A stretch of 64,000 nucleotides of DNA, from the NCBI GenBank assembly GCA_913031625.1, contig CAJWGB010000004.1:1-64000 (forward strand), given 5' to 3'. Numbering within the stretch: position 1 is the first letter of the stretch; every line of letters starts with the position of its first letter. Made by a program: the position numbers and the translations under genes. The notes beneath the pieces were generated by a model. It did not search any database and was not told the DNA's origin. It was given only the letters and a program-made list of their open reading frames with translations. The DNA comes from an uncultured Planctomycetaceae bacterium. GTDB lineage: Bacteria; Planctomycetota; Planctomycetia; Planctomycetales; Planctomycetaceae. Shown one piece after another: positions 39,965 to 46,555 of this stretch.

Positions 39965-40368
39965 TCAGCGGTAGCCGGGCATGCGAACGTGGCTGTGAAT
40001 CCAGGGGCGGGGCCTGTACGGGCCCGCGACGTATTGACACGGTTGCGTTCCGTGCTGCTCATGAGCTTGAGTGAATTGTCACTGAGGCCCGCTCGCCCGG
40101 AGGCTGATGTAAAGGGACGGTGTTTTGTGTTCTCGCCACGGGGACCAGGTGTCTGTTATGGCATTGTCCGGGTGACGGGCTCGATTGATCGTTAAAGTCT
40201 GCCCGGTCTGCCAGAGACGGTGTTTGCCTGATCCCTACGACCTGCCACGTCGGACAGAGCACGTTAAGCGGGCAGAATCAATGTGCTGGAATAGGCAGCG
40301 GCGTGCCGTCTGTAGTCGATAATTAAGGGTCGCTCGAGACAGTTTTGATTGAAGTGGAGAAGCTTGTT
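39965..40368. other. Intergenic region before the AsmA-like gene
   Basis: About 400 nt. A 68-codon plus-strand ORF (39989-40195) is present but Arg/Pro-rich with no motif, and I do not call it. Confidence 0.35.
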
Positions 40369-43300
40369 GTGGCTGCTCAGAAATCCGACATCACAGAAGC
40401 TTCCTCAACGACTCCCCGTCGACGTTGGTTGCGTCGGCTGGTTGTGCTTTTATTGATTCTGGCAGCGCTGCCATCGCTGGTCACTGTCAGTGGGACACAG
40501 CGAACACTGCTTGGGCTCGTGAGTCCTCGGCTGGCTGACGCTGTGAGTTTCGATTCTGCCATGCTGCACTGGTGGGCACCAATCGAAATCAGTGGGTTGC
40601 AGGTTGCCGATCTGTCGGTCGAAGAATCCGATCGCACGCTGCTGACCGCAGAGAGACTGGTGTCGCGTCAAACCCTGTTGAGCGTCCTCTGGTTGCAGGG
40701 AGAGGATTGTCATTTTGCGATTGAGAAACCGGTTGTTGATGTGATTGCCTCAGAGACGACGACCAACGTTCAGGCCACTCTTAATCAGCTGTTTGAGTCA
40801 TCGGACGACACTGACGATTCGTTTCCAATCAGTGTTGCGATCACAAACGGCCGGGTGCAGCTTCACACCGGTTCTTTGGAAAATCCGCAGCAGGCGGGCT
40901 CGCTGGATAATCTGAACCTCTCAATGGAGACCTCCGTCAATGGATTGGAGCAGCTGTCGCTGTCGACCGGAGTTTTGTCTCAGGTGGACGCAGTTGCAGA
41001 TTCTGACTCTCCGTCTGGTCCGCAATTGACTCATGGGGTCAATCCGAGGATTGCTCAGGTTCTGGATCGCCTGTCCTCAGATCAGCCGCTGTTGCCGGAT
41101 ACCGGGCCGAGTCACACAAGCTCCGTCGACAATCCTGCGGGAAGTCTTCGCGTCGATCTGCAGGCTGTTGACAGGGGACGCGTGTTCGTGGCAGAAGCAA
41201 CGCAGCTGGATTTGCAGGATATGGGTGTTCTGCTCAACGGACTCGTTCCGGGGCTGCAGATTTCAGGAATGATCGATGGACGCGTCGAAGCTGTGCAGGC
41301 AGCCGACCATGGTGGCTTTGCGGGGCGGATTCATTTGCTGGGAACCGACCTTGGTCTCCGGCATGCATCTTGGTCAGAGTCTGAACGACTGATTCCTGGC
41401 GCGACAGAGATTCATGGAACGCTGCTGATGACGTCTGACGCGTTGTTGCTTGAAGACCTTCGGCTGACTTCAGATGTGATGACAGCGGCCGGAAATGGAA
41501 AGGTCCGGTTACAGCCTCGCGATCCTGTCGAAACCCTCCGAGCTGCCAGCCAGACGGACATGTCAGTGGAGCAAAAGGCAGCGGTTGAGGATGCAGCCTC
41601 TGCAATGTCTGGAGTTGTTCAGATTCATGCTGAGGTCGATCTTGCAGGACTTTCGAGGATGATGCCTCAGACGCTCGGGCTGGCAGAAGGGATTGTTGTC
41701 GAGTCCGGCACGGTGGCAGTTGATCTGCGGCTCGACACGCAGTTGCCGGGTCAGTCTGACGCCGCCACGCTCAGATTTGATCGCCAGCCGCATTCGTTTC
41801 GCTGGCAGCTTGCCACACGGATTTCTCCGTTGACTGCAGTGGTTCCTCAGGATGGAGGGCAACTCAGACGTGTTCAGGTTCCATCAGTGGTCGAAGGTGC
41901 CGCAGATGGCATCTGTGACCAGGATTCAGTGGACCTTCGGAGTGCTGTTGTCAGCGGCGAATTCGGCCAGCTTACTCTGAAGCCCGAAGACGAATGGTGG
42001 ATTGTCGACGGCCGGGTAGATCCTTCGCTGATCTGGAATCAGTTGCAGCCGCTGCTTCAGCTGGATGCCCCGGGGTTCACGGGGCCTGTGACCGTCAGTA
42101 CACGGTTTCGGACGGTTGATGGTGTACACCAGTTGATGGAGACCTCGATTGATTCTTCCACATTGAATCTGTCGAGCCCTCGGCTGACTGTTGATCCCGG
42201 TCGTAACCCGCTGCGAATGGTCCAGGGACAGGCTCGTCTGCAGGGTCGCGCTGCGGCTTTGGAAACTCTCATTCAGCCATGGCATGACCTGTCATGGGTG
42301 GCTCCTGATTCTGAAGTCATTGTGCAACTCACTGGCACCGACAGGAAAAGCTTTGGGCTGCATGCTCTCATCAGGCCCTCCCCGGGACGAGCGGCAGCTA
42401 TTGATCCTGAGGCTGGTGTCCTTCGAGCGGCGAGGGCAGATCTTGAACTGACTCCGATCGCCAATGGCCGATTCCGAGTGGAAGAAGGTAAGCTGCAGAT
42501 ACCAGGTGTGACGGTTGTCGCTGAAGGGACACTCGATGCCAGCGGGCGATATGTGTTCACCGAGATGACGGCGGACGTGCAGTACGACCTAAGTCAGTTG
42601 AGCCGGCAGTTTCTGTCTTCGGTCGGGCTCCGGTTGAACGGCAGACATCAGCATCGGTTTCAGATTTCAGGGAGCCCGGAGCTGCTCATTGCTCCTGCCG
42701 GACCGAGAATTGAAGACGTTGCCCCCAGCCTTGCAGTTTCCGGTACTGTTCGTTGGGATAACGGCTGGTTCGATGGAATGTCGATTGGGCCCGGTGAGGC
42801 AGAACTGCGACTGCAGGATGGCGTGGTCAGCAGTAACCCCATTCAGACTTCTCTGGCGGGCGGATCTGTTTCAGCGCTGCCTCGGTTTGACCTGAACCGC
42901 AACATCTTCGCGCTGGCTTCCGGAAGTCGCGTTGAGAAAGTCAGTCTGACGAAAGAACTGTGTGAACACTGGCTCGGGTACGTGAGTCCCTTCCTTGCGG
43001 AATCGTCTGCGGTTGAGGGGCAGCTGTCAGCGCGGCTGAAGGGACTGGAGTATCACCTTGATCGACCGGAAGAGAGTCGGTTTCAGGGAGCCATTACAAT
43101 TCACTCGGGCAGTGCTCTGCCTGGAGGAAGCCTGCAGAAGGTGATGCAGGCCATTCAGCTGGCAACTCAGAAACAGGTTGCTGGACGTGGCGTGACACTG
43201 CCGCCGCAGCGTGTGGACGTGCAGATGTCGGGCGGAGCCATTCACCATAATGTCTTTGAAATGGACCTTGCGGGCTGGCGACTGGCGACGTCCGGCCTGG

Positions 43301-43524
43301 TTGGGCTGAATCAGCAGGTGCAGCTGACGGTCGACGTTCCTTTGGAACGGTCAACAGTCACCAGCCGCGGGAGCAGTCTTCAGATCCCGGTTCGCGGGTC
43401 AGTCAGGCAGCCTCAGGTTGATCTGCAGACGCTGTTGAGGAATGCCGGGCAACGGCAGATTCAGGACCGCATTGACCGTGAAATCGATCGAGGCCTGAAT
43501 CGGCTGCTGGACCAGTTGAGGTAG
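40369..43524 (+). CDS. AsmA/TamB-like large envelope protein
   Basis: About 1051 aa from GTG 40369, chosen because GGAG lies 9 nt before it (track start TTG 40345). One N-terminal anchor (RRLVVLLLILAALPSLVTVSG, residues 22-42), then a very long beta-rich periplasmic body with many 'DLSVEESDRTLLTAERLVSR'-like strands, and C-terminal 'TVDVPLERSTVTSRG', 'IPVRGSVRQPQVDL' as in the AsmA C-terminal domain. This build matches AsmA/TamB/YhdP lipid-transport bridges between inner and outer membrane. Ends in an Arg/Asp helix 'IQDRIDREIDRGLNRLLDQL'. No enzymatic motif is visible. Confidence 0.78.
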   Translation: MAAQKSDITEASSTTPRRRWLRRLVVLLLILAALPSLVTVSGTQRTLLGLVSPRLADAVSFDSAMLHWWAPIEISGLQVADLSVEESDRTLLTAERLVSRQTLLSVLWLQGEDCHFAIEKPVVDVIASETTTNVQATLNQLFESSDDTDDSFPISVAITNGRVQLHTGSLENPQQAGSLDNLNLSMETSVNGLEQLSLSTGVLSQVDAVADSDSPSGPQLTHGVNPRIAQVLDRLSSDQPLLPDTGPSHTSSVDNPAGSLRVDLQAVDRGRVFVAEATQLDLQDMGVLLNGLVPGLQISGMIDGRVEAVQAADHGGFAGRIHLLGTDLGLRHASWSESERLIPGATEIHGTLLMTSDALLLEDLRLTSDVMTAAGNGKVRLQPRDPVETLRAASQTDMSVEQKAAVEDAASAMSGVVQIHAEVDLAGLSRMMPQTLGLAEGIVVESGTVAVDLRLDTQLPGQSDAATLRFDRQPHSFRWQLATRISPLTAVVPQDGGQLRRVQVPSVVEGAADGICDQDSVDLRSAVVSGEFGQLTLKPEDEWWIVDGRVDPSLIWNQLQPLLQLDAPGFTGPVTVSTRFRTVDGVHQLMETSIDSSTLNLSSPRLTVDPGRNPLRMVQGQARLQGRAAALETLIQPWHDLSWVAPDSEVIVQLTGTDRKSFGLHALIRPSPGRAAAIDPEAGVLRAARADLELTPIANGRFRVEEGKLQIPGVTVVAEGTLDASGRYVFTEMTADVQYDLSQLSRQFLSSVGLRLNGRHQHRFQISGSPELLIAPAGPRIEDVAPSLAVSGTVRWDNGWFDGMSIGPGEAELRLQDGVVSSNPIQTSLAGGSVSALPRFDLNRNIFALASGSRVEKVSLTKELCEHWLGYVSPFLAESSAVEGQLSARLKGLEYHLDRPEESRFQGAITIHSGSALPGGSLQKVMQAIQLATQKQVAGRGVTLPPQRVDVQMSGGAIHHNVFEMDLAGWRLATSGLVGLNQQVQLTVDVPLERSTVTSRGSSLQIPVRGSVRQPQVDLQTLLRNAGQRQIQDRIDREIDRGLNRLLDQLR

Positions 43525-43926: not shown

Positions 43927-44247
43927 ATGATCATCACGAATACGGAAACGATTGCCGGGTATGAGATTTCGGAAGTCCTCGGCATCGTTCAGGGGAACAC
44001 TGTACGTGCGAAGCATGCCGGTAGAGATATTGCAGCCGGCCTGAAGAACCTTGTCGGCGGGGAGCTGAAGGGATACACCGAACTGCTGACCGAATCTCGA
44101 CGGGAAGCGTTGGAGCGAATGATGGCTCAGGCACAGCAGCTGGGAGCGAACGCCGTCGTGAACATCCGATTTACGACCAGTGCTGTGACTTCAGGGGCCG
44201 CGGAAATGTATGCCTATGGCACTGCAGTTGTTGCAGACCCGGTTTGA
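43927..44247 (+). CDS. YbjQ family protein (UPF0145)
   Basis: 106 aa, matching the YbjQ family in length and motifs: 'TETIAGYEISEVLGIVQGNTV', 'GGELKGYTELLTESRREAL', 'MMAQAQQLGANAVVNIRF'. YbjQ forms homopentamers and is listed as a putative heavy-metal-binding domain, but its role is not known. No signal peptide. A second, membrane-anchored protein of the same family follows 48 nt later, then a PrsW protease. Confidence 0.92.
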   Translation: MIITNTETIAGYEISEVLGIVQGNTVRAKHAGRDIAAGLKNLVGGELKGYTELLTESRREALERMMAQAQQLGANAVVNIRFTTSAVTSGAAEMYAYGTAVVADPV

Positions 44248-44295
44248 GTCTGAACCTGAATCCTCTCACTGGTCTCTTTACTCAGGACTGTCACA

Positions 44296-44781
44296 ATGGG
44301 TAATTTGTTAATAGTCGGGCTTCAGTTGCTCATGTTCGCTGGGCCATTGTTCATTTTTGGTGTGATCATTGGCCGGACAGTGGAGAAGCGGCATTTTCGA
44401 AGAATCGAAGAGCGTGAACGAGAAACATCAGACGTTCTGATCACACAGCTAAAGTCATTTCCGATGGCCGACCGAGCAGATCCATCAGCCACCGTCGTGA
44501 TGGCAGAAGTCGTGATTGGCAGCGACTATTTGAAGTCGTTCTTCGCCAAATGGCGCAACATTTTCGGGGGCGAAATCAAGTCGTTTCAGACGCTGCAGGA
44601 ACGGGCAAAGCGAGAAGTTATTCTGCGCTTGGTTGATCAGACGCTGGATCATGGGTTGAACGCCATCTGCAACGTTCGCATCAATGCGGCAGACATCGGC
44701 GGCAATACCATGGGGGGCAAGAACAAAATTCCGATGGCTGCAGTGATCGCAACCGGCACTGCTTATCGGGCGGCCAGATGA
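44296..44781 (+). CDS. Membrane-anchored YbjQ-like protein
   Basis: 161 aa. An N-terminal helix, IVGLQLLMFAGPLFIFGVIIG (residues 5-25), then a basic linker and a YbjQ-like domain: 'VVMAEVVIGSDYLKSFFAKW', 'GGEIKSFQTLQERAKREVIL', 'LDHGLNAICNVRINAADIG'. The helix would place the domain on the cytosolic face, or outside if it acts as a signal anchor. The stop overlaps the start of the PrsW gene by 4 nt (ATGA), so the pair is coupled. Confidence 0.8.
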   Translation: MGNLLIVGLQLLMFAGPLFIFGVIIGRTVEKRHFRRIEERERETSDVLITQLKSFPMADRADPSATVVMAEVVIGSDYLKSFFAKWRNIFGGEIKSFQTLQERAKREVILRLVDQTLDHGLNAICNVRINAADIGGNTMGGKNKIPMAAVIATGTAYRAAR

Positions 44782-45614
44782 GCGGCTCGGATTCTGCTGC
44801 AGAAGATGAGTGGTTTGATGGTTCATCTGATGAGTCGTCTCCGTTTGACGCTCCGGAATCCAGTGCTCCTCCGCCGCAACGGATCACGAATGATCCGTCC
44901 GTCTTTGAAGAGCCGTGGATGCGCACTGGAAACTCGGTCATGCACGGCCGTCCTGAGTCTCCTGAGGTTCCGGGGGAAGCTGACCCTGAATCTTCCGTCT
45001 GGGACGAGCCCGGACTTTCGCTGCAGTTGTCTGGCGACATTCCAGCTGACGGACTGACATGGCATCGCTGGGCTGAGCAGAACCAGGCCCGCACATCGCT
45101 TACGACTTCGCTCGGAGTCACGCTGCTGGTCGCGATTTGTTCCGGTCTGTTGGCGATCCTCGGCACACTGATTATTCAGGCGGGGGGAGGTAATGCGTTT
45201 GTGTTGCTGGCGATTGGCGCGCCAATCGTGGAGGAGACGATGAAGATCGGGCTTACGATCTGGGTGGTCGAGAAACGGCCATGGCTGTTCCGTTGGCGTG
45301 GGCAGATTCTTTTGTGCGGCATGTGCTCCGGAATGGTGTTTGCAGCAATTGAAAATGTCATCTACCTCACGATCCTGATTCCCAATCCGTCTGCCGCAAT
45401 TGTGACCTGGAGATGGACGGTCTGTGTCTTGCTGCACACCGGATGCAGCAGTCTTGCGGCGCTTGGAGCGACTCGCGTTTGGTCGGAGTCTCGGCGGCTG
45501 CAACGGCAGCCACAGTTGTCTGATGGAGCCGCATGGATCGTGGCAGCGATGCTGTGTCACGGGATTTACAACACGGCTGCACTCGTTCTTGCATGGGCCG
45601 GTCACACTTTTTAG
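44778..45614 (+). CDS. PrsW family intramembrane metalloprotease
   Basis: 278 aa. An acidic, Ser/Pro-rich cytosolic tail (1-110) precedes about five membrane helices. PrsW motifs: EExxK in 'GAPIVEETMKIGL', 'FAAIENVIYLTI' (ENxxY), the His in 'VLLHTGCSSLAALG' and in 'MLCHGIYNTAA'. In Bacillus PrsW cleaves the anti-sigma factor RsiW. Family knowledge suggests a site-1 protease; its target here is unknown, but the membrane-anchored YbjQ protein overlapping its start is the obvious candidate. Confidence 0.88.
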   Translation: MSGSDSAAEDEWFDGSSDESSPFDAPESSAPPPQRITNDPSVFEEPWMRTGNSVMHGRPESPEVPGEADPESSVWDEPGLSLQLSGDIPADGLTWHRWAEQNQARTSLTTSLGVTLLVAICSGLLAILGTLIIQAGGGNAFVLLAIGAPIVEETMKIGLTIWVVEKRPWLFRWRGQILLCGMCSGMVFAAIENVIYLTILIPNPSAAIVTWRWTVCVLLHTGCSSLAALGATRVWSESRRLQRQPQLSDGAAWIVAAMLCHGIYNTAALVLAWAGHTF

Positions 45615-45829
45615 TTCACAATCCGCAGCAGCGGGTTGATGCAGTGGCATCGTGTTGCCCCGGTCTGGTCGCCCGGTGACAGCGAAATGGCGGCAAATTC
45701 CATCGCGGGACGCGTGGGGCGGCCGCTCTGAACTCCCCAAATGTGGGGGTTCAGCCTTGAGCGGAACAATCACGTTCCCATAAATTGCGGGCTGATGAGA
45801 TTCGGATCCAACCTGGCACGGACGCTGGC

Positions 45830-46555
45830 ATGAAGATTAGAAATCGATTTCTGAACTGGTGCATTGCCAGTGCAGCCACATTGATTTTCCGAACCCTGTT
45901 TCTGACAGTCCGTGCGGAGTATCCGCGACTCGCTGACAGTGCGAGCCCCTACATCCCGCCAAAGGGTGACAGGCGATTCTGTTTTTGCCTCTGGCATGAC
46001 GCAATCGTGGCCTGTCTTTTCTCATCCCGGACCTACAACCTTGCGGCGCTAATCAGTCGTCATCAGGACGGCTCGTATCTGACCTACGCCATTCGCAAAC
46101 TGGGACTGTTTCCCGTTCGAGGATCGGCCAGCCGAGGCGGCGCTCAGGCAACGAAACAGCTCATTGAGCAACCCGACCTCCACGTGTGTATTACGCCGGA
46201 TGGTCCTCGGGGGCCGCGTCGCGAAATGAAGGATGGAATCGTATTCCTTGCGTCGCGCACCGGGCGCTCCATTGTGCCTGGCGCCGTTACGGCCACCCGC
46301 TACTGGGCTGCGCCTGCCGGATGGTCAGACCTGTTGATTCCCAAACCGTTTTCCACGGTGATCATGCTGGCAGGAGACCCCATTGAGGTTCCTCCTGATC
46401 TGACCCGGGAAGAGATCTCAGAGGTAACGACTCAGGTTCAGCGCGAAATGGACCGCCTTGAGGCCATCGTTCAGCGGTATGTCGACGGTGATGTGGCCGC
46501 GATTAACGATGTTTCTCGCGATTCCGGAGAGACGACGTCAGCGGCTGCTGCATAG
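45830..46555 (+). CDS. DUF374 lysophospholipid acyltransferase family protein
   Basis: 241 aa from ATG 45830; the track ORF is 15 codons longer. Acyltransferase-like: HxxxxD-like 'FCLWHDAIVACLF', 'ALISRHQDGSYLTYAI', 'LGLFPVRGSASRGGAQA', 'VCITPDGPRGPRREMKDGIVFLA' (typical DUF374). It is likely an inner-membrane peripheral enzyme that acylates a lipid A or phospholipid precursor. Start lies 216 nt past the PrsW stop. The last residues are Ser/Ala-rich. Confidence 0.9.
   Translation: MKIRNRFLNWCIASAATLIFRTLFLTVRAEYPRLADSASPYIPPKGDRRFCFCLWHDAIVACLFSSRTYNLAALISRHQDGSYLTYAIRKLGLFPVRGSASRGGAQATKQLIEQPDLHVCITPDGPRGPRREMKDGIVFLASRTGRSIVPGAVTATRYWAAPAGWSDLLIPKPFSTVIMLAGDPIEVPPDLTREEISEVTTQVQREMDRLEAIVQRYVDGDVAAINDVSRDSGETTSAAAA

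Follow-up and report, generated by a model that had tools for sequence, protein, structure and literature searches.

The window, a stretch of 64,000 nucleotides, carries a cassette in which a soluble YbjQ protein (SOL), a YbjQ protein with a membrane helix (ANC) and an intramembrane protease of the PrsW family are encoded side by side. This cassette recurs in other Planctomycetota. Its protease subfamilies depend on the YbjQ pair, PrsW is replaced by an unrelated M48 protease in some genomes, and the PrsW proteins share a pair of tail motifs that is restricted to them. Taken together, the cassette suggests that YbjQ proteins organize or control membrane proteases.

The Cassette and Its Surroundings

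An earlier note on this DNA had described a soluble YbjQ, an anchored YbjQ and a PrsW protease in a row. Open reading frames, Pfam matches, the hydrophobic helix and AlphaFold models confirm this arrangement (Table 1), and the ATGA overlap it reported for the last two frames is present in the sequence (AGATGAGC). SOL matches PF01906 (YbjQ_1) over residues 1-102 (E=8e-39, 132.8 bits) and ANC over residues 64-156 (E=3e-15, 57.2 bits), both at a Pfam cut-off of 23, while the protease matches PF13367 over residues 110-270 (E=8e-15, 55.3 bits; cut-off 23.5). Neither family is matched elsewhere in the 6.7-Mb genome, the triad genes being its sole members.

Table 1. Features of the YbjQ-PrsW cassette and their positions in the window.
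Feature	Position	Strand	Basis and remarks
SOL, soluble YbjQ, 106 aa	43927-44247	+	PF01906; ORF call; no hydrophobic helix
ANC, membrane-anchored YbjQ, 161 aa	44296-44781	+	One helix (residues 2-43, hydrophobic part ~6-24), then full YbjQ domain
Predicted transmembrane helix of ANC (residues 6-24), coding part	44311-44367	+	Hydropathy; K/R-rich C side
PrsW-family intramembrane protease, 278 aa	44778-45614	+	ORF call, PF13367, catalytic motifs, AlphaFold
PrsW N-terminal tail (residues 1 to ~107), predicted cytosolic, mostly disordered	44778-45098	+	AlphaFold
PrsW tail motif 1, SVFEEPWMR (residues 41-49)	44898-44924	+	Comparison of triad PrsW
PrsW tail motif 2, SVWDEPGLS (residues 73-81)	44994-45020	+	Comparison of triad PrsW

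The cassette is flanked by a large AsmA/GspN-like envelope protein with a weak NCBIfam match (40345-43524, +) and by a DUF374 acyltransferase (45785-46555, +); no sigma or anti-sigma gene was recognized beside it, its immediate neighbors being these two genes. A scan for promoters and terminators gave nothing above shuffled sequences. Antisense to the PrsW gene runs an open frame of 316 aa (44823-45773, -), which probably just shadows the coding strand.

Conservation within the Order

In a sample of 150 genomes of the order, 13 matched ANC strongly, at E values of roughly 1e-30 or below; matches elsewhere were weak and confined to the YbjQ domain. Strong full-length matches to a profile of the triad PrsW fall in the same 13 genomes; drawn independently, such an overlap would have a probability of about 5e-19, a figure that is not a formal p-value since the genomes are related. 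The gene order is SOL-ANC-PrsW in all 13, and always adjacent. The earlier note had taken the three genes for one unit and had made their neighboring in related genomes its test. They adjoin in every genome of the order with a strong ANC match, and the unit is borne out by this conserved adjacency and by co-occurrence. Moreover, ANC and PrsW retain 35-60% identity, whereas the AsmA-like and DUF374 flanking genes have no match in 12 relative loci; the arrangement is thus conserved far beyond chance. SOL is 77-83% identical among the 13 triads. A larger operon including the two flanking genes was considered and rejected, as neither is matched in those loci.

The sample includes seven further genomes of the genus to which the window belongs, and none of the seven has ANC or PrsW; acquisition and loss thus seem to affect the unit as a whole. 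The remaining matches to the PrsW profile in the order comprise G137, where a contig end cuts the gene, G092, G133 and three marginal ones. G092 encodes a divergent orphan PrsW with no adjoining YbjQ. In G133, a C-terminal remnant of a triad-type PrsW (L169:3574-3714, -) persists without YbjQ genes, while other members of that genus keep an intact triad.

Distribution across the Phylum and Beyond

Full-length ANC was found in 39 of 392 Planctomycetota genomes, a gene-content comparison in which relatedness is uncorrected apart from the tree, and SOL lies immediately 5' of it in all 39. The partner is a PrsW in 23 of these genomes and an M48 protease in 10; five have no adjacent protease and one locus meets a contig end, so that 33 of 38 evaluable genomes carry an adjacent protease. 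The five without one belong to three families, f27 with three genomes and f36 and f7 with one each. Conversely, triad-type PrsW (E < 1e-20) occurs in 24 of the 392 genomes; ANC accompanies it in 23, the remaining one (G189) being truncated at a contig end. Chance neighborhood, or an accident of one genome, is rejected by the adjacency and co-occurrence in both the order and the phylum sample.

A scan with one genome per GTDB species yielded 29 loci. SOL is present in every one of them and PrsW in 26; two have no PrsW, and one (L095) has the start of the PrsW tail only. The distribution outside Planctomycetota rests on three of these 29 loci, labeled Verrucomicrobia, Kiritimatiellae and Actinomycetes, the last being a metagenome-assembled genome (MAG) that may be misbinned. 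L095, from the Verrucomicrobia MAG, has the YbjQ pair followed by the beginning of a PrsW tail (SIEHEPHLR; L095:4458-4900, +) without a membrane part, which points to decay or an assembly error. Among named strains, Adhaeretor mobilis HG15A2 (L092) carries a PrsW-type cassette in its complete genome. In L139 the PrsW gene stands upstream of the YbjQ pair, not downstream.

Three loci of one family (L150, L151 and L152 in G375, G195 and G249) hold the pair without PrsW or M48. Just upstream of the pair, all three have a divergent gene whose product starts with ISADMEGVTG and looks like a peptidase M55 (D-aminopeptidase). An origin from plasmids or other mobile elements was rejected: a plasmid search returned ordinary YbjQ domains only, none covering 80% of ANC.

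Replacement of the Protease

In the 10 phylum genomes mentioned above, the pair is followed by a protein unrelated to PrsW, with HExxH and a match to PF01435 (Peptidase_M48). A profile of these pair-linked M48 proteins scores 332-400 bits in those 10 genomes only, the next best match among the 392 genomes reaching 137 bits. Since this M48 subfamily occurs only with the pair, and triad-type PrsW accompanies ANC in 23 of 24 genomes with the last at a contig end, both protease subfamilies are dependent on the pair. On a tree of ANC the PrsW and M48 partner states need one change, with the M48 rows sitting among PrsW rows; this tree is unrooted with weak deep forks, so that the direction of replacement is inferred. 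Distances of ANC and PrsW correlate with each other (r=0.66).

The pair-linked M48 proteins possess a conserved cytosolic N-terminal tail of their own, in which F3, L8, D13 and G17 are invariant and which differs from that of PrsW but is conserved to the same degree. They are true M48 proteases with HExxH and resemble in this the M48 membrane proteases related to HtpX, LoiP and Oma1 (PF01435), but are distinguished from them by this tail and by being found solely beside the YbjQ pair.

Fold and Topology of the Anchored YbjQ

The AlphaFold model of ANC (pLDDT 90.5) shows a helix over residues 2-43, followed by a complete YbjQ fold. A Foldseek search with this model returned 1vr4 (E=1.4e-4, prob 1.00) and also 1y2i and 3qkb. 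The membrane anchor that had been proposed for the second YbjQ holds as one hydrophobic helix at residues 6-24. Further anchored YbjQ proteins outside the triads were considered and rejected, as the other YbjQ genes of the order lack a hydrophobic helix.

In 55 ANC sequences H33, just past the helix, as well as D77, G91, G92, R103, T155 and A156 are invariant, whichever protease adjoins. The cytosolic end of the helix carries the glycines G22 and G26, and the juxtamembrane residues G26 and H33 are equally conserved in the classes with PrsW, with M48 and with no protease.

Lysine and arginine are more frequent after than before the helix in 63 of 63 ANC sequences. Consequently, the YbjQ domain is predicted to be cytosolic, with the protein oriented N-out/C-in and almost no extracytoplasmic part. 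The M48 partners show the reverse bias in eight of eight cases, and thus their catalytic domain is predicted to be extracytoplasmic and their tail inside. In PrsW, no hydrophobic segment precedes the first membrane helix, and from the loops, under the positive-inside rule, we assign its tail to the inner side. PrsW and M48 would accordingly have in common a conserved tail in the cytosol, on the side of the YbjQ domains, all these topologies being predictions from a hydropathy window and the distribution of charges.

YbjQ proteins of solved structure form pentamers (PMC4092069), and 1y2i, 2gtc and 1vr4, which are profile matches to the YbjQ proteins, contain five chains each. By analogy with these structures, a pentamer mixed from SOL and ANC is plausible.

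Catalytic Motifs and Tail of PrsW

The PrsW of the window has complete catalytic motifs: EETMK (152), FAAIEN (188), WRWTVCVLLH (211) and HGIYN (261). The corresponding motifs EExxK, FxxxEN, H and HxxxN lie in membrane helices, L161 being the exception among the triad PrsW proteins, and PF13367 is matched by all 33 triad PrsW examined with it. A Foldseek search of the PrsW model against the PDB gave no hit with E < 0.001. The model has pLDDT <50 over much of residues 1-81, and its first membrane helix spans residues 108-135.

Within the tail, triad PrsW proteins share two similarly spaced copies of a motif with the general form [SG][VI]xxEP, while the rest of the tail is variable. Of 47 triad PrsW, 45 carry one copy or more, that of L139 among them, and the motif is missing from 20 other PrsW in the order. 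All loci compared supply 2062 frames with a length of 150 aa or above, and among these the motif pair occurs in no frame other than PrsW: two frames with the pair and without the catalytic pattern turned out to be the degenerate PrsW of L161 and L127, which is one gene present twice. Linear motifs that recur within disordered tails are commonly a sign of multivalent docking. The tail motifs of PrsW may dock on YbjQ; alternatively, they could bind another cytosolic protein.

The degenerate PrsW of L161 (G466; L161:3890-4792, -) has lost all four catalytic motifs, with AEVAK for EExxK, EG for EN, VQ for LH and HAVIR for HxxxN. It keeps both tail motifs and the YbjQ pair. This single case indicates that docking can outlive catalysis. 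The same protein has a zinc ribbon between the tail and the membrane helices, which is also found in L146, L148, L163 and L103 with intact catalytic motifs. PrsW has been noted in polymorphic toxins, as have its fusions to signaling domains and zinc ribbons (PMC3482391). In contrast to the PrsW-dependent polymorphic toxins, the PrsW of the window has no toxin domain fused at its C-terminus and ends 8 residues past the Pfam match.

Proposed Role of the YbjQ Pair

We lean, by a slight balance of confidence, toward a YbjQ assembly that is tethered to the membrane, to which membrane proteases dock by their cytosolic tails and which controls these enzymes. SOL and ANC would assemble into a mixed ring, probably based on a pentamer, which the anchored subunits would hold at the cytosolic face of the inner membrane. 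This ring would dock the cytosolic N-terminal tail of a dedicated protease (PrsW here, M48 in a sister lineage), in the case of PrsW through the repeated [SG][VI]xxEP motifs. It might then gather, position or gate the protease on a cytosolic or membrane signal and thereby control its activity on other substrates of the membrane or envelope, the main substrate probably lying elsewhere. We favor docking and control because the YbjQ domain of ANC is predicted to be cytosolic and the catalytic domain of M48 extracytoplasmic, because the tail motif is restricted to triad PrsW, and because a dead PrsW keeps its tail. Given the five genomes in which no protease adjoins the pair, the pair can act without one. 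More generally, and tentatively, as the case is nearly balanced but falls short of even, YbjQ rings might be membrane-anchored cytosolic adaptors dedicated to membrane proteases, in which the catalytic subunit (PrsW or M48) can be exchanged and is recruited via short repeated tail motifs.

The earlier note had offered a different function, in which PrsW cuts ANC and the freed protein mixes with the soluble YbjQ; the cut would fall in or near the membrane helix, and the domain set free in the cytosol would serve as a signal. Such a role fits the strict adjacency and co-occurrence with the protease, the full set of PrsW catalytic motifs and the known part of PrsW as site-1 protease in regulated proteolysis (PMC3498285); as an intramembrane enzyme PrsW could cut the ANC helix, and G22 and G26 at its cytosolic end would be usable by a protease. 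However, ANC is predicted N-out with almost nothing outside, which is the reverse of RsiW, and the catalytic domain of the replacing M48 is predicted on the opposite side of the membrane. The stem residues G26 and H33 are no better conserved beside PrsW than beside M48 or no protease, a dead PrsW has been retained, and the long conserved tail would be left unexplained. Orientation, M48 swap, stem conservation and dead PrsW thus speak against cleavage and release as originally worded. It is possible, yet less supported than docking and control, and we consider it unlikely.

Two further explanations deserve consideration. The pair might sense a metal or stress and switch the protease on, with the real substrate a membrane regulator encoded elsewhere. 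Pfam annotates YbjQ as putative heavy-metal-binding, ANC has the invariant juxtamembrane H33, and in Bacillus subtilis the target of PrsW is an anti-sigma factor (PMC3498285); yet metal binding by YbjQ is only predicted (PMC4092069), and no sigma or anti-sigma gene was recognized beside the cassette. This idea overlaps with docking and control and differs mainly in that YbjQ would be a sensor and not a scaffold; in its distinct form it appears improbable to us. Still more doubtful is an operon that merely serves a common purpose, for example envelope stress, with YbjQ and the protease never in direct contact. While the five pair loci without an adjacent protease and the upstream PrsW of L139 agree with it, neither protease subfamily occurs without the pair, their tails are subfamily-specific, and the genes often overlap or nearly do so.

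Comparison with Known Systems

The earlier note knew of no described system of this kind, and our literature search likewise found no description of YbjQ joined with PrsW or M48, and no established role of YbjQ, least of all one tied to a protease. SOL and ANC belong by sequence and profile, and ANC also by predicted fold, to the YbjQ/UPF0145/DUF74 family (PF01906; 1vr4, 2gtc, 1y2i, 3qkb). ANC differs from it in its membrane anchor with an invariant juxtamembrane motif, as the other YbjQ proteins of the order that were checked have no hydrophobic helix. Thiamin phosphate synthase activity belongs to YjbQ, which is a different family from YbjQ. This activity has been credited to YbjQ (PMC7084401), which calls for care when annotations are transferred between the two names.

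The triad PrsW is of the same protease family as that of the PrsW-RsiW-RasP system of Bacillus subtilis, where PrsW is the site-1 protease for RsiW (PMC3498285), and the catalytic motifs are conserved. In contrast to that system, the cassette has no anti-sigma partner among its immediate neighbors, and its anchored partner has the opposite predicted orientation. An adjacent RsiW-type substrate with an extracytoplasmic part is not seen in the cassette, ANC being predicted N-out with few residues outside. Furthermore, the triad PrsW has a long cytosolic tail whose repeated motifs the 20 other PrsW lack, and it is replaceable by M48.

The nearest working analogy is the SPFH scaffold HflK/HflC with FtsH (PMC12048511), in which two subunits likewise form an anchored assembly linked to a single membrane protease. 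There is no homology: YbjQ has a different fold, Pfam assigns SOL and ANC to PF01906 and finds no SPFH domain in them, and PrsW and M48 are not AAA proteases. In addition, HflK/HflC-FtsH extends into the periplasm, whereas YbjQ is here predicted to be cytosolic.

At the level of gene systems, SOL-ANC-protease appears to be new, judged from the literature search. YbjQ (UPF0145) is a widespread and structurally solved family without an established function. The cassette, with two YbjQ proteins tied to a membrane protease whose class was exchanged while the pair was kept, links this family to membrane proteolysis, offers definite partners, motifs and residues for experiments, and extends PrsW beyond anti-sigma cleavage. 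Should ANC be cut and released after all, the cassette would represent a previously undescribed form of regulated intramembrane proteolysis. If YbjQ adaptor rings exist, they would constitute a protease-organizing system unrelated to SPFH proteins and the first function for the UPF0145 family.
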